The translations under genes were made by a program, and so were the position numbers. This document shows positions 506-44,779 of a stretch of 53,316 nt of DNA, in pieces; position 1 is the first letter of the stretch, and every line of letters begins with the position of its first letter. A model generated the notes under the pieces. The model worked only from the letters and a program-made list of their open reading frames with translations, did no database searches and was not told the DNA's origin. This DNA comes from an uncultured Boseongicola sp. GTDB lineage: Bacteria; Pseudomonadota; Alphaproteobacteria; Rhodobacterales; Rhodobacteraceae. Location of the stretch: contig CAJQNG010000105.1 in the NCBI GenBank assembly GCA_905479635.1, positions 1-53,316 of the forward strand, in the 5' to 3' direction.

Positions 506-1252
506 ATGACAAATTACTCTCCATTTCGGTACTTCAAGACCAGTCCAGAAATCATCCGTCTTGCGGTGATGATGTATGTCCGTTTTCCGCTTTCGCTTCG
601 AAATGTTGAGGATTTGCTGCACGAGCGTGGCATCGATATCAGCCACGAGACGGTTCGATTTTGGTGGAACAGGTTTGGTCCGATGTTCGCCGCTGAAATT
701 CGTAAAAGGCGCGTCCATCAGTTGCGGGCATATTCAAACTGGCAATGGCACCTGGACGAGGTCTTCGTGAAGATCAACGGCGAGACGCATTATCTTTGGC
801 GAGCCGTTGATCACGGAGGCGAGGTGCTGGAAAGCTATGTGACTAAGCGCCGTGATCGCAAAGCAGCTTTGAAATTCCTTAGGAAAACCATGAGAAGATA
901 TGGCCAACCGCAGGTGATTGTGACGGATAAATTGCGTTCATATGGCGCTGCGATGAAGCAGATTGGCAATGCAGACAAACGGGAAACGGGACGCTGGCTC
1001 AACAATCGGGCCGAGAATTCACACCCGCTGCCTGACAGTGGTTTGCTTGCAAACCATGAAAAGGAGCCGTTTCGACGACGAGAACGGGCGATGCTTCGGC
1101 TCCGGCGCATGCGAAGTTTGCAAAAATTCGTCTCCGTCCACGCCTTGGTCCACAACCATTTCAACCAGGAACGCCACCTTTACTCACGCGCCAATTTCAA
1201 GCTTAACCGCGCGGCCGCTCTCTCCGAATGGCGTCAACTCGGTGCGGCATAA
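506..1252 (+). CDS. IS6-family DDE transposase with internal insert
   Basis: This 248-residue protein has the IS6 layout: an N-terminal helix-turn-helix region (about 20-60, with LRNVEDLLHERGIDISHETV) and a DDE catalytic core. The catalytic Asp are visible in HLDEVFVKI (about residue 84) and VTDKLRSYG (about 141), and the Glu in NNRAENSH (about 175). Directly after NSH there are 13 extra residues (net) compared with the copy at 9241-9717, which reads straight on to PFRRRE. The extra DNA is a palindromic insert listed separately. The reading frame stays open, but an insertion beside the catalytic Glu may well inactivate the enzyme. The family assignment is firm; activity is doubtful. Confidence 0.88.
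   Translation: MTNYSPFRYFKTSPEIIRLAVMMYVRFPLSLRNVEDLLHERGIDISHETVRFWWNRFGPMFAAEIRKRRVHQLRAYSNWQWHLDEVFVKINGETHYLWRAVDHGGEVLESYVTKRRDRKAALKFLRKTMRRYGQPQVIVTDKLRSYGAAMKQIGNADKRETGRWLNNRAENSHPLPDSGLLANHEKEPFRRRERAMLRLRRMRSLQKFVSVHALVHNHFNQERHLYSRANFKLNRAAALSEWRQLGAA
1025..1066 (+). repeat. Palindromic insert A inside IS6 transposase
   Basis: Compared with the IS6 copy at 9.2-9.7 kb, this gene has a net 39 extra bases after the codons for NSH. The insert starts CGCTGCCTGACAG and contains a perfect hairpin at 1039-1056, TGGTTTGC / GCAAACCA around a TT loop. It ends AAAAGGAG. Its start matches the insert in the IS630 gene (CGCTGCCTGATAG) and its general design (GC-rich lead, palindrome with TTGC and GCAA arms, purine tail) matches both other inserts. 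Confidence 0.65.
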
Positions 1253-1305
1253 AGGGCAGCTTCATTGTCCTTGCAGAGACTGGTTCGCATTCGTCTGACA
1301 GCACC

Positions 1306-1417
1306 ATGGGCAACGCTTGAGGAAATCGCGGATGGTATCCTTTATCTCGCCTCTGACCTGTCATCCTTCATGACCGGCCATGCGCTTGTGATCGACGGTG
1401 GTGAGAGCATCTATTGA
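1306..1417 (+). pseudogene. 3' fragment of short-chain dehydrogenase (SDR)
   Basis: The frame reads roughly WATLEEIADGILYLASDL, then SFMTGHALVIDGGESIY and a stop. This is the conserved C-terminal end of classical SDR oxidoreductases, with the typical LASD..S..TG..L..DGG pattern. Only about 37 codons remain and the Rossmann and YxxxK parts are absent. The break falls at the proposed right end of the IS6 element. No matching 5' part lies on the other side of the element, so a deletion or rearrangement accompanied the insertion. Confidence 0.8.
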
Positions 1418-1655
1418 ATTTGGGCTTGCAGGTGTCATGGGGGCGCGCGACCTTGCGGATGCCCCTGTTTTCGAGAATTGAAGCCCTCGAATTCAGTCGG
1501 GCCATGCTTGTGAAATGTGGTCTTGTCTGGCTGTAGGTGCTAAAGTGAAAATTGGAAGTGGCGTGCCGGGACAGCCCTGTTGGCGGGGATGCTGTTGATG
1601 GTCGCGCGCTGTGTTCTTTTGCACAAACATATTCAATCGGATTTGGAATGTGGTG

Positions 1656-2525
1656 ATGACAATGCGATACGAAAAACCTGCGACGGCACAAGAGGCCGCA
1701 AGCATTCTGGCAAACGAGCCGGGCGTTGCCCGCGTGTTGTCTGGCGGGACTGACGTTCTGGTCCAGCTTAGGGCCGGTATGATAGAGCTGGACCTGATCG
1801 TCGACATCAAGAACCTTGATCAGATCAAAGACATTACCTCCGAGGATGGGGGTTTCAGGATCGGCGCAGCCGTTTCCGGCGCCTCGCTTGGTGAGCACGC
1901 GGGCGTTGTCGCCCTTTGGCCGGGTGTTATTGAAGCCTTCGAATTGATCGGCTCGACGCAGGTGCAGGGGCGTGCCACGATGGCCGGAAACCTGTGCAAT
2001 GGATCGCCCGCCGCAGACAGCGTTCCGGCCATGGCCGCTGCGAATGCAACGGCGCGCATCGTGGGGCCGGACGGGGAACGGGACTGTTCGGTCCAGGATA
2101 TACCGGTGTCACCTGGTCGGACCTCTCTCACAAAGGGCGAGATCGTAACCTCGATCTTTTTGCCAGCACGTCCCGAACGCGCCGCGGACGCCTACCTGCG
2201 GTTCACACCCCGCACCGAAATGGACATTGCGGTGGCGTCCGCCGCTGTCAGTTTGGAGCTTGACGCGGGCGGCACATGCACAGCGGCACGTATCGCCCTT
2301 GGGGCGATCGCGCCGACCGTCGTGTTGGTCGATGCCGCGTCCAAATGTATCATCGGAACAAAGCTAGATGCGGCCGCACTAGAGGCCATGTCGACGGCTT
2401 GTTCCGCCGCGTGCAATCCGATTGATGACAAGCGCGGAACCATTGAGTTCCGCACCCAGGTCGTTGGCGTTTTGGCCAAACGCGCCGCGTTGATTGCCTA
2501 TAAGCGTGCAGGAGGCCGCACATGA
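1656..2525 (+). CDS. Molybdenum hydroxylase FAD-binding subunit (CoxM/XdhA-like)
   Basis: This medium subunit of a xanthine dehydrogenase/CO dehydrogenase-type enzyme carries FAD and passes electrons from the 2Fe-2S subunit to an acceptor. Visible FAD-binding signatures are LSGGTDVLVQLRAG near the N-terminus and ATMAGNLCNGSPAADS in the middle. The length of 289 residues is normal. I chose the ATG at 1656; an in-frame ATG at 1662 is equally possible, and an earlier in-frame start at 1611 has poor support. The stop overlaps the next start by four bases (ATGA), so the three subunits are translationally coupled. The substrate cannot be read from this subunit. Confidence 0.9.
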   Translation: MTMRYEKPATAQEAASILANEPGVARVLSGGTDVLVQLRAGMIELDLIVDIKNLDQIKDITSEDGGFRIGAAVSGASLGEHAGVVALWPGVIEAFELIGSTQVQGRATMAGNLCNGSPAADSVPAMAAANATARIVGPDGERDCSVQDIPVSPGRTSLTKGEIVTSIFLPARPERAADAYLRFTPRTEMDIAVASAAVSLELDAGGTCTAARIALGAIAPTVVLVDAASKCIIGTKLDAAALEAMSTACSAACNPIDDKRGTIEFRTQVVGVLAKRAALIAYKRAGGRT

Positions 2526-2998
2526 GAAATCTCCACATTTCCACCTCGGTGAACGGTGACCAAACCGAATTTGTCTGTGCGCCGGACGAGACGTTGCTGG
2601 ATGTGCTGCGCAACCGCCTTGGGCTTACCGGTGCAAAAGAGGGGTGCGGGACAGGCGATTGCGGTGCCTGCAGCGTGACCCTCAATGGGCGCCTTGTCTG
2701 TTCGTGTCTGGTGCTTGGAGTTGAGGCCGAAGGCGCTGAAATCGGCACGGTTGAGGGGTTGGCAATGGGGGATCACCTGCATCCGTTGCAGCGCAACTTC
2801 ATTGACCATGCCGCCTTGCAGTGCGGCATCTGCACCCCCGGCATTCTGGTTGCGGCGAAGGCCCTGCTGGAAAAAAATCCAAACCCGACCGATGAAGAGA
2901 TCAGGTATTGGCTGGCGGGAAACCTGTGCCGCTGCACCGGCTATGACAAGATCATAAAAGCCGTGCAGATCGCAGCTGCCGAAATGAGGGGTGCATAA
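2522..2998 (+). CDS. Molybdenum hydroxylase 2Fe-2S subunit (CoxS-like)
   Basis: This is the small subunit with two 2Fe-2S clusters that carries electrons from the molybdenum site to FAD. The plant-type ferredoxin cluster ligands are seen in GCGTGDCGAC (Cys42, 47, 50, with another Cys near 60). The C-terminal four-helix domain carries the second cluster in QCGICTPG (Cys101, 104) and NLCRCTGY (Cys136, 138). All expected cysteines are present and the length of 158 residues is normal. It overlaps the FAD gene by four bases and ends just before the large-subunit start. Confidence 0.95.
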   Translation: MRNLHISTSVNGDQTEFVCAPDETLLDVLRNRLGLTGAKEGCGTGDCGACSVTLNGRLVCSCLVLGVEAEGAEIGTVEGLAMGDHLHPLQRNFIDHAALQCGICTPGILVAAKALLEKNPNPTDEEIRYWLAGNLCRCTGYDKIIKAVQIAAAEMRGA

Positions 2999-2999
2999 A

Positions 3000-5243
3000 A
3001 TGGCTTTGGATTCAAAGATGAATCGAGTTTTCAAAGTTGTTGGAACCCGCCCTCCACGCCCCGATGGCGTCGAAAAGGTCACAGGACGCGCGATGTACGG
3101 CGCCGATGCCACAGCGCCCGGTATGTTGGTCGGGCGCATCCTGCGCAGCCCGCATGCCCATGCCATTATAAAGTCCATAGATGTCTCTGCAGCCGAGGCC
3201 CTGAAAGGGGTCAAAGCCGTCGTGACCGCCGCAGATTTTGGTGTGCCGGACGATCTTTCAATTCGTGACGTGCAGGACAATTGCATGGCGCAGGGAAAGG
3301 CGCTGTATCACGGTCACGCCGTGGCTGCTGTCGCGGCTAATACTGCGGCCATTGCCAGTCAGGCCCTAAAGTTGATCAAGGTGAGATATGAGGTCTTACC
3401 CCATGTCACCGACGTTGACGAGGCGATGCGTCCGGGCGCGCCGATTGTTCAGGAAGCGCGCGCTTTGGAAAACGTCGCTGCCGGATTTTCGGAAAATGTG
3501 ACCAGCCAGTGCGAGTTCGGGCATGGCGATCTGGAGGTAGGCTTTGCCAAGGCTGATAAGGTCATTGAGCGAAGCTTTACCACGGCCGCGACACATCAAG
3601 GATATATCGAACCACATGCCTGCCTCGCGTCGATGTCGCCGGACGGGAAGGGCGATTTGTGGTGCTGCACGCAGGGCCAGTTCCAAGTCCGCACCCTGTG
3701 CGCCGAAATCATGGGAATGGATGCCAGCCAGTTGCGGGTGACGGCCTCGGAAATTGGCGGCGGATTTGGCGGCAAGACAACCGTATTCATCGAACCAGTT
3801 GCCCTTGCCCTGTCCCGCAAATCAGGGCGCCCGGTGAAGATCGTGATGACCCGCGACGAAGTGTTCAAGGCAACAGGTCCAACGGTGTCTTCCTCGATGG
3901 ATGTCAAGATCGGCATGACCAATGATGGTCGCATCACGGCCGCTCAGGCCCAACTGCGCTATCAGGGCGGGGCATTCCCGTGCGGTACGGTCGAGATGGG
4001 GGCGCAAAGCGCATTTGCCTGCTACAATCTGGATGCGGTTCATACTGTGGGTTGGAATGTGCTGACCAATCGCCCGAAAGAGGCGGCCTACCGCGCGCCC
4101 GGTGCGCCGATGGCGATCTATGCTGTCGAAAGCGTTGTGGACGAGCTGTGCCAGGAACTTGGCCTTGATCCGCTGAACGTCCGGCTGAAGAATGCCTCCA
4201 CCAAAGGCACAAAGTCATCCTACGGGCCGACCTTTGATGACATCGGTCTGCGTGCGACGTTGGAGGCGGCAAAGGCGCATCCGCACTGCTCCGCGCCCCT
4301 TGGCCCAAATCAGGGACGGGGCCTGTCCTGCGGGTTCTGGTTCAATTTTGGCGGCAACACCTGCGTGTCATTGAACATCAATACTGACGGCACCGTGGGG
4401 ATTACCGAAGGCAATCCGGATATCGGAGGCTCTCGGGCGGCGATCAGCCAGATGGCGGCGGAAGAGCTTGGCGTTCCCTACGACAAGGTCAGGACGATCA
4501 TCGCCGACACCAATTCGCTGGGCTACAATGACGTAACCGATGGGAGCCGCGTGACCTTTTCAGTCGGTCTTGCTACGATTGAGGCGGCGCGGAATGCGAT
4601 CAAGGTGATGTGCGGACGGGTTGCCAAAATTTGGGGCATAGATGAAGACGCCGTGATTTGGGAAGATGGATGCGCCAAACCATCCGGCGCGAACGCGGGC
4701 GATTTTACCCCTATGTCGATCGAGGAGATCGCGGCAATTTCCTCAAATACCGGTGGACCGATTGCTGGCCATTTTGAGGTCAACGCGGACGGGGCTGGTG
4801 TAAGTTTCGGTGTGCATCTTGCCGATGTCGAGGTCGATCCGGAAACCGGTGCGACCAAGATCCTGCGCTACACGGTATTTCAGGATGCCGGAAAGGCCGT
4901 GCATCCCGACTATGTCGAGGGCCAGATGCAAGGCGGTGCCGTTCAGGGGATCGGCTGGGCGCTGAACGAGGAATATATCTACGGAAAAGATGGATTACTG
5001 CAGAACGCGGGCTTTCTTGATTACCGTGTTCCCGTTGCCTCGGATCTGCCCAACATCGAAACCGTCATCCTGGAAATCCCGAACCCAGGCCATCCCTATG
5101 GCGTGCGCGGGGTCGGAGAGACGCCCATCGTGCCGCCTTTGGCCACATTGTCAAACGCAGTCGCACGCGCCATCGGGATCCGCTTGTTCGAACTGCCGAT
5201 GTCCCCGCCAAAGCTGCTCAAGGCAATCCGGCAAAAGGGATAG
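3000..5243 (+). CDS. Molybdenum hydroxylase large, molybdopterin-binding subunit
   Basis: This 747-residue protein holds the molybdopterin cytosine dinucleotide cofactor and the active site. Visible motifs are GGGFGGK (253-259) and GVGETPIVPPLA, with the likely catalytic Glu at about 707. The active-site loop reads AYRAPGAP, not the AYxCSFR of true aerobic CO dehydrogenase, so it belongs among the form II/aldehyde- or heterocycle-oxidising relatives and should not be called CoxL. The ATG at 3000 is chosen because a GAGGGG site lies nine bases upstream and it follows the previous stop by one base; a GTG at 2991 is the alternative. The substrate is unknown; N-heterocycles or aldehydes are possible. 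Confidence 0.92.
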   Translation: MALDSKMNRVFKVVGTRPPRPDGVEKVTGRAMYGADATAPGMLVGRILRSPHAHAIIKSIDVSAAEALKGVKAVVTAADFGVPDDLSIRDVQDNCMAQGKALYHGHAVAAVAANTAAIASQALKLIKVRYEVLPHVTDVDEAMRPGAPIVQEARALENVAAGFSENVTSQCEFGHGDLEVGFAKADKVIERSFTTAATHQGYIEPHACLASMSPDGKGDLWCCTQGQFQVRTLCAEIMGMDASQLRVTASEIGGGFGGKTTVFIEPVALALSRKSGRPVKIVMTRDEVFKATGPTVSSSMDVKIGMTNDGRITAAQAQLRYQGGAFPCGTVEMGAQSAFACYNLDAVHTVGWNVLTNRPKEAAYRAPGAPMAIYAVESVVDELCQELGLDPLNVRLKNASTKGTKSSYGPTFDDIGLRATLEAAKAHPHCSAPLGPNQGRGLSCGFWFNFGGNTCVSLNINTDGTVGITEGNPDIGGSRAAISQMAAEELGVPYDKVRTIIADTNSLGYNDVTDGSRVTFSVGLATIEAARNAIKVMCGRVAKIWGIDEDAVIWEDGCAKPSGANAGDFTPMSIEEIAAISSNTGGPIAGHFEVNADGAGVSFGVHLADVEVDPETGATKILRYTVFQDAGKAVHPDYVEGQMQGGAVQGIGWALNEEYIYGKDGLLQNAGFLDYRVPVASDLPNIETVILEIPNPGHPYGVRGVGETPIVPPLATLSNAVARAIGIRLFELPMSPPKLLKAIRQKG

Positions 5244-5245
5244 GC

Positions 5246-5491
5246 ATGGTCAAGGTGACGATCTGGGGCTCCTTGCGGTCTGCGACAGATGGACAGGTTG
5301 AAGTCGAAGTTGATGCGCGCAATTTCAAGGAATTGCTGGATCGTCTGGCGACCGAATACCCGGGCCTGAAACCGCAAATCGAGCGCGGTGTGTCGCTGGC
5401 TTTGGATGGCAAAATCTACCGCGAGGCATGGTTTACTGAAATCGGGCCAAAGAGCGAAGTCGTCCTGATGCCCTATATGACAGGCGGGTGA
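5246..5491 (+). CDS. MoaD/ThiS-like sulfur-carrier protein
   Basis: This 81-residue protein has the beta-grasp pattern of MoaD/ThiS: a short first strand (VKVTIWGSLR), a helix in the middle (FKELLDRLATEYPGL) and the C-terminal tail ending MTGG. The terminal Gly-Gly is the site that E1-like enzymes adenylate and convert to a thiocarboxylate. The gene starts three bases after the large-subunit stop, so it is the fourth gene of the operon. It may supply sulfur for the dithiolene or terminal sulfido ligand of this particular enzyme, or be a spare MoaD for molybdopterin synthesis. No MoaE or MoeB partner is in the window. Confidence 0.75.
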   Translation: MVKVTIWGSLRSATDGQVEVEVDARNFKELLDRLATEYPGLKPQIERGVSLALDGKIYREAWFTEIGPKSEVVLMPYMTGG

Positions 5492-5555
5492 CAGTCGGCG
5501 ATTTTTCTGTGAGGCACATTTGTTTCGGACTAATCGCAGCACGTCTGGTCGTTTG

Positions 5556-5599
5556 AAGACCTCAGAAAGGTCTTGTAAGAAGAAACCGGCTTGAGCCGG
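5556..5599 (+). terminator. Two small hairpins after the MoaD-like gene
   Basis: Two perfect inverted repeats lie in the gap after the operon: AAGACCT/AGGTCTT at 5556-5574 and CCGGCT/AGCCGG at 5586-5599. Neither is followed by a T-run, so an intrinsic terminator is doubtful. They may be part of a Rho-dependent or IS-derived end. Confidence 0.3.
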
Positions 5600-5695
5600 G
5601 AAGGGCGGTTGCTTAATCTCGGTGGATGAGAAAGCCCAGCCCATTTCGATACTTTCGATCCAGTCATGAGAGCTTTCGCCTAAAGCGTTTCGGTT

Positions 5696-6692
5696 TTAAC
5701 CTGAGGCATATCCGGCATCCTTGAAGTCATTCCAGCACTCTTGAGGGTCATATAGGTCGCTGACTTTTCCAACGGCTTCGAAGACGTCGGTGAAGGTTCT
5801 TGCACCAATGCGTCGCAAGTGGGCTTTCAGTTTGGAGAAGGCCTGCTCGATTGGGTTCAGGTCGGGCGAGTATGGCGGTAGGAAGAGGGACCAGCATCCA
5901 TGCGCGCGCAGGGCCTCTGACGCTTCCTTGTTTTGTGGGTGGCCAGGTTGTCCGGTATGGCCACGGTACCGGGTTCGATCTCCGGCACCAGCACTTCGCG
6001 CACGTAGGCGGCAAATGCCGGACCATCCATTGCGCCCTTTATGACCCATGGCGCGATCAAGGCGTCCTGGGTCAATCCGGCGATCAGCGTTTGTGTCGCC
6101 CAACTGCCAACGGGCGCACCCATATTCAGTCGCTGGCCGCAAACGATCGGTCTCGTAGGCGGGTTAGGTTGGTCTTCACAGCCGTTTCGTCCGCTGCCTG
6201 ATAGGCGATTGCACAGCAATCTGCCGAGAAGGAATAAACACAACACGTTCAGGCTGACGCCCAATAGCTGGCAGCCGATGGACAAACTAGTCGGCACGCT
6301 GACGCCTTACATTGGCGCGGCGGCGCTCGGACGCAACCAACGACTTTTTTTGTACGTGAATCCGAGCCGGGACAGCAGATCCGCGATAGATGAGTGGTGG
6401 ATCTGTACACCCTCTGCATCAGCCAGTGCATCGCGAAGTTCAAAGAGCGTAATGTCTGGGTCCTGCATGATCAGCTCTTCGAAGAATGCCCGGTGGGGTG
6501 CTAACTTGCCGCTCCCCGGCGGGCGTCCCTGAGATGCAGGCAAGGCATTCCCTCTCATCCTGACCGATGTGCCCAACGCGCCCCCGTCGCTGGCGAAAGC
6601 TTCAAACGCAACGCCGCCGCACGCCCGCTTAACCCTTCTTCAATGTATCGCTGAAACCGTGCCCGAAGCGCATCCGGCAAAGGTGCTGGCAT
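5696..6692 (-). pseudogene. IS630-family transposase, broken
   Basis: Pieces of one transposase can be read in order on the minus strand. First comes an N-terminal HTH part starting MPAPLPDALRARFQRYIEEG. Next is QGRPPGSGKLAPHRAF through HHSSIADLLSRLGFTYKK, and then the catalytic core with RVVFI and DETAVKTNL separated by an insert. The end reads LFLPPYSPDLNPIEQAFSKL to DAGYASG. The gene is broken by a stop after HRSG, a frameshift after FTYKK, an in-frame TAG and a 41-bp palindromic insert exactly before the Asp of DETAVK. The sequence beginning TAAAGCGTTTCGG near 5681 may be one terminal repeat. It is inactive. Confidence 0.85.
6192..6232 (+). repeat. Palindromic insert B inside IS630 transposase
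   Basis: The transposase reads RVVFI, then 41 foreign bases, then DETAVKTNL, so the insert lies immediately before the codon of the conserved Asp. On the plus strand it begins CGCTGCCTGATAGGCGATTG and ends TGCCGAGAAGG. The core is GATTGC/GCAATC around an ACA loop (6207-6221), with flanking GGC and GCC able to pair around a one-base bulge. Its last 30 bases match insert C at 28 positions. Confidence 0.75.
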
Positions 6693-6712
6693 GATCCGTC
6701 CTACCAAACAGG

Positions 6713-6900
6713 ATGAATCACAAACTGACCTACATGGGAATCCCCCGATTCAGGTTTTCCCGAAACGCTATAGCCGGCATATTCTACGTCAAATTTCTTT
6801 TTTTCTCCGGCATGTCAAAGATCTGCTGCGCGAGTATGGTAACGATATCAGACGTGAGCCCGTTCGCTTCTGGTGGAGAAGATTTGGTGGCATTGTTAGA
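6713..6900 (+). pseudogene. N-terminal remnant of IS6-family transposase
   Basis: One frame reads LRHVKDLLREYGND followed by REPVRFWWRRFGG. This aligns with LRNVEDLLHERGID and ETVRFWWNRFGP of the intact IS6 transposase at 506-1252. Upstream similarity is weak and frame-shifted, and nothing of the DDE core follows. The missing C-terminal half is matched by the fragment at 9241-9717, so both could be parts of one element that was split, with mocA/xdhC-like genes between them. Confidence 0.65.
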
Positions 6901-7062
6901 CTAAATTTGATTGCTATACTTTTTCGAGGACGCCGCATGGTTTCTATTGGTGAGATTAATGAAGGCCATCCAAGCATAGAGATCTTTCCTATAAGTTCAA
7001 AAATTGAAGTGGGATCGGTCGCCTAACAAGTCTAATCTGACGTTACCCACGATCGGACCGGA

Positions 7063-7638
7063 ATGATTATCGCAGGTATTCTCCTTGCCGGAGGGCAGTC
7101 AGAACGTTTCGGGCGAACCGACAAACTTCTCGCGCCCTTCCTAGGCAAGCCGCTTGTCACCCATGCTGCTGGCGCCTTAACGGCGTGCAAATTCGATTTA
7201 TTAATCGCTGTTACAGCAAGTCAACAGGTCGCTGAAAGGCTTTCTGGATTTCAGATTACCGCTCCGCCGACGCAGTCGCACACGCAGTCTGATAGTCTGC
7301 GGGCAGGCCTTCGCCTCGCCGAACGCCTGGGCGCTGACCGGGCGGTTGTCGTTCTTGGTGATATGCCCAATGTCACAACAGTTTTAATTCAAGAGGTAAC
7401 GGCGCGATGCCGCGCGGGAACTCCATCTGCTGCTTTTGACGGGAGACGCTCTATGCCGCCCGCGTGTTTCCCCCGGGAAAGCTTCTCAGCCATCCAAGGC
7501 CTCGCTGGCGACCAAGGTGCGCGCACTTTCTTTCGTGGTCTTTCGGTCGATGCACTTGTCCAAGCTCCGGACGGCGAGCTTATTGATGTGGACACACCAG
7601 ATGATATTACCAAGGCAGCGAAAGCCCGTGGGGGCTAG
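7063..7638 (+). CDS. MobA/MocA-like molybdenum cofactor nucleotidyltransferase
   Basis: This 191-residue protein has the nucleotidyltransferase signature LLAGGQSERFGRTDKLLAPF at its N-terminus. A GDMP motif near residue 107 is the metal/nucleotide site of the family, and a late DVDTPDDI is typical. Members of the MocA branch transfer CMP to molybdopterin, giving the cytosine dinucleotide form used by xanthine-dehydrogenase-family enzymes. The CMP preference is inferred from its company with a molybdenum hydroxylase and an XdhC-like gene. IS debris now separates it from the hydroxylase operon. The 236-base gap before the next gene holds no other feature that I can see. Confidence 0.85.
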   Translation: MIIAGILLAGGQSERFGRTDKLLAPFLGKPLVTHAAGALTACKFDLLIAVTASQQVAERLSGFQITAPPTQSHTQSDSLRAGLRLAERLGADRAVVVLGDMPNVTTVLIQEVTARCRAGTPSAAFDGRRSMPPACFPRESFSAIQGLAGDQGARTFFRGLSVDALVQAPDGELIDVDTPDDITKAAKARGG

Positions 7639-7874
7639 GTTGCGAAGGCATTGCGGAGATGTAGTGCCTGAAGCTTGGACATGTTCCTGCAACAGGTTTT
7701 CCACCGATTTCTCGGTTTCTTGAGTGCGTTTTGCATCTGTCGAGCGACGTTATCAGTCGTGTCGAACCTAACGGCGTTCCTAGACACAGCTCTGAAATCC
7801 TTTTACGATGCGGTATCACCTGTTTACTTAACAGAAATTTGCCTTTGAGCGATGGCAATCAGGCAAGATAACCC

Positions 7875-8840
7875 ATGAATTCTCTTCTCCCAGCAGCCTC
7901 CGGGCTTGATCCAATTGAGGCTATTGCGACAAACCGCGACGACGCTGTACTTGCCGTCATCACTGGCGTGGAGGGGCCGTCCTACCGGGCGGTTGGCGCA
8001 GCAATGGCCATTTGGGCGGATGGTTCACGTTTGGGTGCTTTGTCATCGGGCTGCATTGAGGCAGACCTTGCCTTGCATGCTGCTCAAGTTCTGGCAACAG
8101 GCAAGCCTAAAACCCTACGGTATGGGCGCGGCTCGCCTTTTATCGATATTCAGCTGCCATGTGGTGGGGGGCTTGATATCCTTTTGCTGCCGCGGCCGGA
8201 TCGCCGGGTCTTTCTTGAATTGACAAAGCGGCGTGCTGCCAGACAGTTGTGTACGATCGGGATAGACATCTACTCTGGTGCCCTCACGTTGTTAGATGAT
8301 GGAACAACCGGTTTGATCGGCTCGAAGTTCGTTGTGCAATTCGCTCCCAAAGTGCGGTTTCTGGTCTTTGGTAAAGGGCCAGAAGCTTGCACGTTTTCAG
8401 CTCTTGTCCAATCCATCGGATATCCAAATCTTCTTCTCTCACCTGATAAAGAGACATTAGAAATTGGGGCGGCTTCAGGCTGCGATGTCCAGCATTTGCG
8501 CCAACCTGAATTCCCGGCAGATTTGATTACCGATCAATGGACGGCCATCGTTCTTTTCTTTCATGATCACGAATGGGAACCGCCTATCCTGTTTGGGGCA
8601 CTCGGCGGACCCGCCTTTTATGTAGGAGCACAAGGAAGCGCGCGCGCCCGTGATGTACGGTTGCTTGAGCTTGAAGCGATGGGGGTTGCGCGGGATGATC
8701 TCGCACGCGTGCATGGTCCGGTTGGTTTGATCCGCTCTGCGCGCGATCCTGCCACATTGTCCGTATCGGTCCTTGCGGAAGTTTTGGACATTGCGACATC
8801 AGTGCCATCTACGGGTGCCGACAGGTCGGGGTGGGATTGA
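7875..8840 (+). CDS. XdhC/CoxI-family cofactor maturation protein
   Basis: XdhC-type proteins hold the molybdenum cofactor, promote its sulfuration and hand it to the large subunit of the hydroxylase. This 321-residue protein shows the N-terminal XdhC/CoxI domain (TGVEGPSYRAVGAAMAIWAD, LSSGCIEADLALHA, IDIQLPCGGGLDI). It also shows a C-terminal Rossmann-like domain (FLVFGKGPEA, VLFFHDHEWE, AFYVGAQGSARAR). The gene ends inside a region where IS3 debris begins only a few tens of bases later, so the final residues may be altered. With the MobA-like gene it forms the maturation pair for the hydroxylase at 1.7-5.2 kb. Confidence 0.88.
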   Translation: MNSLLPAASGLDPIEAIATNRDDAVLAVITGVEGPSYRAVGAAMAIWADGSRLGALSSGCIEADLALHAAQVLATGKPKTLRYGRGSPFIDIQLPCGGGLDILLLPRPDRRVFLELTKRRAARQLCTIGIDIYSGALTLLDDGTTGLIGSKFVVQFAPKVRFLVFGKGPEACTFSALVQSIGYPNLLLSPDKETLEIGAASGCDVQHLRQPEFPADLITDQWTAIVLFFHDHEWEPPILFGALGGPAFYVGAQGSARARDVRLLELEAMGVARDDLARVHGPVGLIRSARDPATLSVSVLAEVLDIATSVPSTGADRSGWD

Positions 8841-8865
8841 AACCGTCAATGTGATTTTTTCCAAG

Positions 8866-9155
8866 CGCCTCCTTCAGCAGCTCGTTCTGCATGCGCATCT
8901 CAGCATACATCTTCTTCAGGCGGCGGTTCTGATCCGCCATGTCCTTCATCGCTGCAATCAAAGAGGCGTCTATTACGCGGCAGGCGATTGCGCAGCAATC
9001 TGCCGAGAGGGTATGCCGCTAAATTTGGCGCGCCACTTGTAGAAACTTGCACTGCTCATCCCATGCTCCGGGCAAAGCTCTGAGACCGGTACACCGCCCT
9101 CAGCCTGTTTCAAAATGCTCATGATCTGTGCGTCGCTATATCGTGCTGTCTTCAT
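8866..9155 (-). pseudogene. IS3-family OrfA (HTH protein), broken
   Basis: The minus strand starts MKTARYSDAQIMSILKQAEG and continues through ELCPEHGMSSASFYKWRAKF, the HTH of IS3-group OrfA. After SGI the frame is interrupted by a 41-bp palindromic insert. The normal sequence then resumes in another frame as DASLIAAMKDMADQNRRLKK and MQNELLKEALGK, the leucine-zipper part. OrfB is not present here. The tail of the gene ends close to the xdhC-like stop codon. Confidence 0.85.
8971..9011 (+). repeat. Palindromic insert C inside IS3 OrfA
   Basis: The expected OrfA sequence GGMDASLI is split between the ATG and GAC codons by a net 41 bases. On the plus strand the insert contains GCAGGCGATTGCGCAGCAAT then CTGCCGAGAGGG. 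Arms GATTGC/GCAATC surround a GCA loop, with outer GGCAG/CTGCC pairing. It lies directly next to a GAC codon, as does insert B, and has the same orientation relative to its transposase. It shares 28 of 30 bases with B at the tail side. Confidence 0.75.
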
Positions 9156-9240
9156 CAAAAATATTATCAGATATCCTGCCGAGAAAATTCGACTTTTGAC
9201 CACTAATTTTAGGGAGATTACCGATCGAATGCGGTCGGGG

Positions 9241-9717
9241 ACACACTGGCAGTGGCATCTGGATGAGGTATTCGTGAAGATCAACGGCGAGACGCATTAT
9301 CCTTGGCGGGCCGTGGATCATGGAGGTGAGGTGCTGAAGAGCTTTGTCACAAAGCATCGTGATCGCAAGGCAGCATTGAAATTTCTTAGAAAACCAATGA
9401 AACGTCATGGTCGCCCACATATATTCGTCACCGACAAGTTACGTTCCTACGGCGCAGCGATGAAGGTCGCCAATGTCGACAAACAGGACACCGGCCGCTG
9501 GCTCAACAATCGAGCCGAGAATTCACATCTGCCGTTTCGACGACGAGAGAGTGCGATGCTCCGTTTCAGACGAATGCGAGGTTTGCAGAAATTCGCCGCC
9601 GTCCATGCCTCGATTCACAACCTGTTCAATTCGGAAAGAAGCCTTCACTTACGATCAAATTTCAAACTCAACCGCGCCGCCGCTCTTGCTGAATGTCGCG
9701 GCCTTTGCGCGGCATAA
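9241..9717 (+). pseudogene. C-terminal remnant of IS6-family transposase
   Basis: From HWQWHLDEVFVKINGETHYP the frame follows the IS6 transposase at 506-1252 closely through VTDKLRSYG and NNRAENSHLPFRRRE to its stop. All three DDE residues are present, but the N-terminal HTH half is missing. The upstream codons (about 9115-9240) derive from IS3 and unrelated sequence. This copy has no palindromic insert after NSH and so shows the uninterrupted state of that site. It is presumably inactive. Confidence 0.85.
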
Positions 9718-43771: not shown

Positions 43772-44779
43772 TTAGGTTGTTTTGTTTTCGGCCTGTAGGG
43801 CCGTCACAGCAATCATATTGACCACATCTTGGGCTGTGCAACCGCGCGATAAGTCATTTGCTGGTCTTGCAAGACCTTGCAAGATCGGGCCGATTGCTGC
43901 GCACCCACCGATACGCTGGGCGATTTTGTAGCCGATGTTACCTGCGTCAAGATTTGGAAAAATCATTACATTGGCTTGCCCTGCCACTTCAGAGCCCGGT
44001 GCCTTTGAGGCACCGACAGATGGGGTGAAGGCTGCGTCGAATTGTAGTTCGCCGTCGCTTGCAAGGTCAGGCCGCTGTGCCCTGAGGAGGTCAGTTGCCT
44101 TTGAAACCTTGTTAACCGTCTCATGTTTTGCGCTGCCTTTTGTGGAAAAGGACAGCATTGCGACTCTAGGTGTTTCGTTTAGCAGGGCGGCGTAAGAGTC
44201 GGCCGACTGAGCTGCGATAGTGGCCAGTTCAAGAGCGCTGGGATCGATGACGAGCCCGCAGTCGGAAAAGACCATGGCGGTCCGACCGGACGGGTGGTCG
44301 TCGGGCAGAACCATAATAAAGAGGCTGGAAACGAGGGCTGCGTCGGGCGCTTTGCCAATAACCTGAAGCGCCGCGCGCACCGTGTCTGACGTTGTGGCAA
44401 CAGCGCCGCCAACGGTGCCGTCGGCTTGACCGAGGCGAACGAGCATGGCTGCAAAGATCAGAGGATTCCGCGCTTCCTTGGCTGCTTTTTCGGGCGTGAC
44501 CCCTTTGTGTTTGCGCAGTTCGAAAAATGCGCCGGCGACGTCTTTCGTTAGCGCAGATGTTCCGGGATCTTCGATTTTCAAGGCATCGCTCGGCGTTCCG
44601 CCTTGGGCGACAAGCTCGGCTCTGATCGCCTCTGCCGGACCGACGAGAACAATAGATGCAAGGTTCGATGCAACGGCTTGAATTGCGGCGGCCACGATCC
44701 GGGGATCGTGGCCTTCGCTTAGGACAATACGTGAGGGGTGCGCCGCCGCTCGGGCGTGTAAATCATCCAGAACTGACAT
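43772..44779 (-). CDS. pta: Phosphate acetyltransferase
   Basis: This enzyme converts acetyl phosphate and CoA to acetyl-CoA and phosphate. The 335-residue protein is the short form, without the N-terminal DRTGG/P-loop part of E. coli Pta. PTA-family sequence is clear in RIVLSEGHDPRIVAAA, GTVGGAVATTSDTVRAAL and FPNLDAGNIGYKIAQRIGG. I prefer the ATG at 44779, with AGGAAG upstream. It follows xsc by 32 bases and takes the acetyl phosphate that Xsc makes from sulfoacetaldehyde. Confidence 0.92.
   Translation of the reverse strand: MSVLDDLHARAAAHPSRIVLSEGHDPRIVAAAIQAVASNLASIVLVGPAEAIRAELVAQGGTPSDALKIEDPGTSALTKDVAGAFFELRKHKGVTPEKAAKEARNPLIFAAMLVRLGQADGTVGGAVATTSDTVRAALQVIGKAPDAALVSSLFIMVLPDDHPSGRTAMVFSDCGLVIDPSALELATIAAQSADSYAALLNETPRVAMLSFSTKGSAKHETVNKVSKATDLLRAQRPDLASDGELQFDAAFTPSVGASKAPGSEVAGQANVMIFPNLDAGNIGYKIAQRIGGCAAIGPILQGLARPANDLSRGCTAQDVVNMIAVTALQAENKTT

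Follow-up and report, generated by a model that had tools for sequence, protein, structure and literature searches.

What interrupts three transposase genes of different insertion sequence (IS) families on a single contig of an uncultured Boseongicola sp., each by a palindrome of about 40 bp? The window, i.e. the whole stretch of DNA analysed, comprises the 53,316 nt of contig C105 of genome G000, a 269-contig assembly that is 71% complete. Its initial annotation had taken the three inserts for a very small, probably non-autonomous mobile palindrome with a taste for transposase genes, and copies found in many Rhodobacteraceae genomes support that description. The reading preferred here, with a probability of about 0.62, is that the three inserts belong to a Rhodobacterales superfamily of mobile, non-autonomous palindromes, which act as hyperparasites of ISs by riding in them and inactivating them.

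Insert A is a 39-bp palindromic element at nt 1026–1064 (+ strand), in frame and in sense orientation within an IS6-family transposase gene (nt 506–1252, + strand), whose open reading frame (ORF) of 248 amino acids (aa) stays open through the insert and matched DDE_Tnp_IS240 of Pfam (E 1.1e-37). Its site lies just after what we take to be the catalytic Glu motif, its stem is TGGTTTGC-TT-GCAAACCA, and seven copies of this variant occur in the same genome, all in IS6 genes. The insert had been placed at nt 1025–1066; its existence was upheld, and its limits are best drawn as given here. Inserts B and C, 41 bp each, were found exactly where they had been placed, at nt 6192–6232 and 8971–9011 (both + strand), with the reported identity at 28 of 30 bases, starting at AGGCGATTGC. 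Both are antisense to their hosts and both stand directly before an Asp codon, in agreement with the GAC codons and the common orientation noted earlier; the codon following B is presumably that of the first catalytic Asp of IS630 transposases. B breaks an IS630-type transposase region (nt 5696–6576, - strand, limits approximate), one piece of which matched DDE_3 below the curated cut-off (E 1.8e-4; 21.8 bits against 28.6), and C breaks an IS3 OrfA (nt 8862–9155, - strand, limits approximate), one piece of which matched HTH_Tnp_1 (E 2.4e-13). These Pfam matches support the identity of the hosts; IS family names beyond them, and all catalytic residues, are assignments that we made from the translations. 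The stem of A is unlike that of B and C, and its ends are related to theirs.

With the 41 bp removed, the host of B reads VVFI^DETAVKTN and that of C reads FSGI^DASLI (caret, junction), and both junctions are crossed gap-free by palindrome-free homologues, namely L051 for B (77% over 298 bp) and L071 for C (83.5% over 261 bp). Palindrome-free IS6 relatives of the host of A, reading GAGAATTCACATC immediately followed by TGCCGTTTCG, are present in the same genome, one of them being the transposase fragment with an empty site at nt 9236–9717 (+ strand) of the window. The site of C is also filled in another genus (L035). A chance resemblance, or native parts of three IS families, might draw on the mild enrichment of single motifs within the window alone; this reading is already refuted by the empty homologues and by many copies in other genes and genomes, and deserves practically no credence. 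The two outcomes named beforehand as fatal to the mobile palindrome, reference ISs naturally containing these bases and an absence of further copies from related genomes, were thus both contradicted.

The core shared by B and C gave five matches in the window genome against none for the reversed sequence. With up to three mismatches, it was present in 40 of 295 Rhodobacteraceae genomes against no control hits, a few of the matches not being the element. At least 117 stretches in genome contigs and 74 plasmid records carried the core, and no match was found in a phage collection, for which one B/C-type 41-mer was the sole query. Among the 80 genome-contig matches listed, nearly all belonged to Rhodobacterales genera or assemblies, the exceptions being one Planctomycetota, one Rhodospirillales, and unplaced alphaproteobacterial assemblies. 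A pattern consisting of the ends only, TGCCCGGCAG N12-30 GAGAGGG, occurred in 93 of the 295 genomes against three hits of the reversed pattern, and a palindrome was read by us, in some cases an imperfect one, in the gap of 79 of 81 fetched matches, though the pattern demanded none. A scan of the collected DNA returned 338 elements against none in reversed sequence, at a threshold set after the control had been seen, and 371 against 3 at the loosest threshold. Before counting, five pattern matches unlike the element (numbers 10, 15, 22, 24, and 25), two non-palindromic matches of the ends pattern (numbers 2 and 12), and copies with too little flank were dropped.

The architecture was described from 355 copies found by a slightly looser scan, which had no reversed control of its own and for which a shuffle control was not used, being circular for a scan that requires a hairpin. 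Near-constant ends, YAYTGCCCGGCAG at the 5′ side and GAGAGGG at the 3′ side, enclose an interchangeable hairpin, of which 171 distinct forms were counted; stems include GATTGC, TGGTTTGC, and GCATGC, and loops are mostly of 2–3 bases. At the apex, GC-GNA-GC, GC-ANA-GC, and GC-TT-GC are frequent; GC-GNA-GC resembles what we take to be a very stable DNA mini-hairpin. Lengths are mostly 37–45 bp, and 197 of the 355 copies measure 41 bp. Insert A belongs to the same superfamily: its TGGTTTGC stem is found between canonical ends elsewhere, in other genomes, and lies beside B/C-type copies in one IS3. A superfamily scan of the window recovered both A and C. Eight loci searched against Rfam 15 gave no match over a curated threshold, two matches being far below. 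The idea of a larger autonomous relative sharing this left end was also tested and rejected, A[CT]TGCCCGGCAG occurring 178 times inside scanned elements and 18 times outside, where 17 were read by us as elements with imperfect stems and one (L083) lacked a hairpin; this test is a weak one, the collected DNA being enriched for elements.

For 81 of 210 copies, the collected DNA contained a homologue that crosses the junction gap-free once the element is removed. Among 143 tests of length, 43 met a subject taken as itself filled; the remaining 100 comprised 49 that agreed exactly with the model, 15 that fell short of it by one base, 9 ambiguous ones, and 27 other cases. No target duplication was seen at the empty sites. 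The left flank reads CRTC (C 62%, A 50% or G 33%, T 61%, C 74%), a motif that is not absolute, and the right flank shows only a G at its first base (73%). Since CRTC-like bases are present in the empty host sites, they belong to the target and not to the element, and the short target suggested at the outset can be specified as CRTC on the 5′ side, or GAYG on the other strand. GAYG consists of an Asp codon plus a G, which accounts for the many sites directly before an Asp; several of these Asp residues, in families IS630, IS5, IS66, IS256, IS3, and IS481, are presumably catalytic. Elements were found in either orientation relative to the host gene. Such insertion, on the 3′ side of a short target and leaving no duplication, agrees with what is expected of MITEs (miniature inverted-repeat transposable elements) of the IS200/IS605 type.

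All 16 copies followed in the window genome lay in genes read as transposases, nine of IS6 (seven with the A variant), one of IS630, two of IS3 OrfA, three of IS30, and one of IS256; two IS30 copies at contig ends could be one, and Pfam matched nothing in the IS30 piece that was tested. From this and other genomes, 132 usable B/C-type copies were grouped into 86 sites, an upper figure for distinct sites because at least one of them is split (numbers 26 and 118 go with number 11), and by our reading 69 of these site groups are transposase or IS genes and two are other genes. In the wider set, which overlaps the first by at least two copies, 60 of 79 palindromic copies were read as lying in IS genes. 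Ten sites read as IS were checked singly by Pfam, and nine gave a match of transposase type or to an IS21 helper. When all host pieces were scanned (137 and 135, one set per strand), transposase and integrase-core families prevailed among the families listed (25 of 27, and 17), the clear non-IS families being RelE (two), Phage_integrase (two), and DUF2169 (one). Scans around 31 copies, the larger part of the unassigned ones, returned ordinary gene families together with transposases. On plasmids, 58 of the 60 places listed (from the 74 records) carried no annotated feature in a collection that omits pseudogenes, while one lay in a gene for a hypothetical protein and one in an unannotated record; of six plasmid places that matched insert A, four lay outside any annotated transposase and two within annotated ones (IS5 and IS256). 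In L144 (record 133), the flanks of one palindrome seemingly derive from two IS families, IS5 on one side and IS256 on the other, as though recombination had taken place between two palindromes.

This concentration in transposase genes may reflect targeting or survivorship, and the data do not separate the two. Under survivorship, the palindrome would insert anywhere that offers CRTC, with no preference among genes, and would persist and spread only in ISs, which are of no use to the host and move between genomes; we hold this to be close to an even chance, a little on the lower side. It is favoured by a target motif of merely about 4 bases, by the multiplication of IS copies with palindromes inside them, by the dispensable nature of some other hosts (a RelE-like toxin gene and a tyrosine recombinase gene), and by copies that lie among ordinary genes. 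Most copies would then be expected in intergenic DNA, yet most of the assigned sites were read as IS genes.

The A variant also speaks against survivorship. The seven copies in the window genome are identical over 32 bases, except that one agrees at 31 of 32, in IS6 genes whose flanks are mostly 70–80% alike (two pairs reach 92–95% on one side). Mobility is supported by a tree of IS6 genes that took in six of the seven: the filled copies were not monophyletic, and filled L311 grouped with empty L313 (ultrafast bootstrap 99). A more distant IS6 carries a different palindrome at the same codon; together these observations indicate repeated insertion or clean loss. Single IS copies with up to five palindromes of different type, as in one IS3 copy (L032), are likewise hard to accommodate under survivorship; five palindromes also occur within 770 bp in L093.

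In IS3 OrfB, sites at aa 7 (sense), 85 (antisense), 104 (sense), 158–160 (antisense), and 226 (antisense) are each filled, in one orientation, by at least two hairpin types, and different hairpins at the same site represent repeated insertion; most of the copies at aa 104 have a loop in common, and a single event may underlie them. By our count, 23 combinations of site and hairpin fall on 15 sites, and the gene offers about 34 CRTC-like positions. Counted conservatively in this way, reuse was not significant (P 0.32 with 30 positions, 0.09 with 40) and about what survivorship predicts, whereas with neighbouring sites merged to 12 it exceeded chance (P 0.008 and 0.0007, respectively), which survivorship does not. 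Separately, L212, L191, and L224 show a same-looking site in one gene in three genera, with a different hairpin in each.

Most insertions shift the reading frame of the host, the motif-defined length being divisible by three in 50 of the 355 copies and not in 305. In L128, two palindromes are the sole lesions seen in OrfB; stops are present as well in other filled IS3 copies (L012, L013, and L027). The complete genome G017 holds six copies of one IS3 with the same four palindromes, 98.8–99.8% identical in the pairs listed, and a full copy of that IS3 free of palindromes was not found in G017. Six near-identical copies imply that the filled IS has multiplied. Codon differences among them comprise 12 non-synonymous and 3 synonymous changes, and one copy lacks the OrfA start codon; this pattern appears neutral and speaks for transposition in trans rather than for a still functional transposase, so that filled IS copies presumably multiply in trans.

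These IS3 copies also raise the possibility that the palindrome is a tolerated intervening sequence, skipped by the ribosome or removed from the mRNA, with the transposase staying functional. In its favour, the IS3 that holds four palindromes has no stop in its OrfB pieces and is multi-copy, and no full copy without palindromes was found. The same gene carries palindromes in both orientations, the substitution pattern in G017 leaves no selection visible, and other filled IS3 copies contain stops, all of which make such tolerance very improbable. Translational bypass in particular was considered seriously for the IS3 of G017 and was marked down on the substitution pattern and on orientation.

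The inserts had also been called natural silencers of ISs, a name that fits the effect, given the frame-breaking lengths and L128, while silencing as a function is unproven. A stronger form would have the palindromes, or a host system deploying them, aimed at transposase genes in order to silence ISs. Many IS families are struck, often directly before an Asp that we take to be catalytic, frame-breaking lengths prevail, and the palindromes are all that is seen to damage the OrfB of L128. However, such sites follow from the GAYG target with no need of intent, the filled copies include decayed ISs (L013 and L027, in which decay may have come before or after insertion), filled ISs still multiply, and no linked gene was found; aimed silencing is judged unlikely.

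A linked REP-type or Y1 transposase, which had been named earlier as something to look for, did not prove to be required. Among genomes that carry the palindrome, Y1_Tnp (PF01797) was detected in 16 of 93, against 15 of 202 others (P 0.014), and the Y2 family (PF04986) in 16 of 93 against 13 of 202 (P 0.006). Y1 was not found in 77 of the 93 carriers, Y2 likewise not in 77, and neither in 65, and an HUH transposase of either type was accordingly rejected as a necessary partner; a general load of ISs would give the same mild enrichment. In the mechanism proposed here, the palindrome would move as a folded single strand and be inserted beside the short left target by an enzyme supplied in trans. 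It would spread between cells inside ISs that are themselves moved in trans, and each insertion would usually frameshift the transposase, so that an IS once autonomous becomes a passenger. The palindromes would thus be hyperparasites of ISs, with silencing as a consequence and not a proven function. A bolder version, in which a 40-base hairpin without a protein of its own is a dedicated IS hyperparasite, integrated by machinery with a preference for transposase genes or for IS DNA of nearly every family, and in which it spreads through the mobilome of marine Rhodobacterales as a standing brake on ISs, is rather doubtful.

Several observations weigh against the hyperparasite reading. Insert B was missed by the superfamily scan, its ends having drifted, and is tied to the family through its core. 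The assignment of hosts is largely our own reading: 15 of the 86 site groups and 19 of the 79 copies of the wider set were not assigned to a host, one of the ten sites checked singly (L021) gave no Pfam match, and neither did pieces read as IS30, IS91, and IS481 (L003, L118, L083, and L076). A RelE-like toxin gene is the host at the same site in two genomes (L007 and L050) and a tyrosine recombinase gene is another host, both supported by Pfam. Five copies in genome G136 (L238–L242) lie among ordinary genes, eight of the ten flanking ORFs matching families such as creatinase, amidohydrolase, and ornithine cyclodeaminase, and none a transposase. No mobilising enzyme was found in the carrier genomes, which were searched for Y1 and Y2, single-stranded transfer is a step that we infer, and the folding of single-stranded DNA was only moderately better than that of shuffled sequences (z -1.3 to -2.5). 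The polyphyly of filled IS6 genes, finally, could be explained by clean losses. The five copies of G136, which share similar upstream sequence (near aaataaactc) and GC-rich stems, are possibly a subfamily with other habits.

Elsewhere in the window, a cluster of molybdenum-hydroxylase type (nt 1611–5491; names from translations) encodes FAD-binding, 2Fe-2S, and large Mo-binding subunits followed by a small MoaD-like ORF, and a MobA-like ORF (nt 7063–7638) and an XdhC-like ORF (nt 7875–8840) are split from it by the broken IS630. A GC-rich hairpin at nt 43,974–44,023 (CGGTGCCTTTGAGGCACCG) had a weak element score and is more likely a terminator. The window genome gave 57 IS6 matches, a high IS6 load, many of them fragments or containing stops.

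The small palindromes of bacteria are usually regarded as residents of intergenic DNA. If the reading preferred here is true, a large family that has its main residence in the transposase genes of many IS types would bring a further layer of parasitism to bacterial genomes and would explain many broken transposases. The family also offers a way to ask what limits ISs in the wild, and it raises the question of what enzyme could bring a 40-base hairpin to a target of four bases and leave no duplication. Plasmids of D. shibae and Leisingera carry copies, making these ideas testable in cultivable strains.

No description of this palindrome family was found in the open-access literature, searched by titles and the openings of abstracts, and this large family of marine bacteria apparently has not yet been described. 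Elements of the IS200/IS605 type possess a hairpin and insert beside a short one-sided motif without target duplication, features that they and the GTAG REPs (repetitive extragenic palindromes) with their RAYTs (REP-associated tyrosine transposases) have in common with the palindromes of the window. The consensus here, in contrast to that of the GTAG REP/RAYT system, contains no GTAG, and Y1 was not found in most carriers, as given above. An element derived from the IS91 type (Y2) fits no better, with Y2 found in just 16 of the 93. Translational bypassing elements of yeast mitochondria are short hairpin inserts inside genes, whereas the present palindromes occur in both orientations and give no sign of kept reading frames.

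Classical MITEs are, like the window palindromes, non-autonomous, short, and repeated; in prokaryotes they normally occupy intergenic regions (PMC10969869). The copies described here are not mainly intergenic, YAYTGCCCGGCAG and GAGAGGG are not inverted copies of each other, and no target duplication accompanies them. The palindromic elements of Rickettsia, as presented in the same review (PMC10969869), are likewise mobile palindromic inserts within coding genes, and differ in being about 150 bp long and in lying in unrelated metabolic genes as in-frame fusions, whereas those of the window family mostly measure 37–45 bp, mostly break the frame, and mostly occupy transposases.

The nearest described group is the CGTC REPs of alphaproteobacteria (PMC3733652). 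These resemble the window palindromes in being small, common in alphaproteobacteria, variable in stem and sometimes intragenic, in lacking a known dedicated transposase, and in carrying a C(G)TC-like motif at one end. They are defined by a stem of 8–9 bp, a loop of 4–5, and a tail CCA, with terminal CGTC or TGTC/CCTC; the repeat itself contains CGTC, stems nearly always open with complementary AT, tails mostly fit CCA, HH dimers prevail, associations with transposase genes are few and fortuitous, and intragenic copies lie in unrelated proteins (PMC3733652). The palindromes of the window family, in contrast, have CRTC as part of the empty host site and not as their own terminus, combine stems such as GATTGC, TGGTTTGC, and GCATGC with shorter loops and the tail GAGAGGG, and have transposase genes as their main residence.

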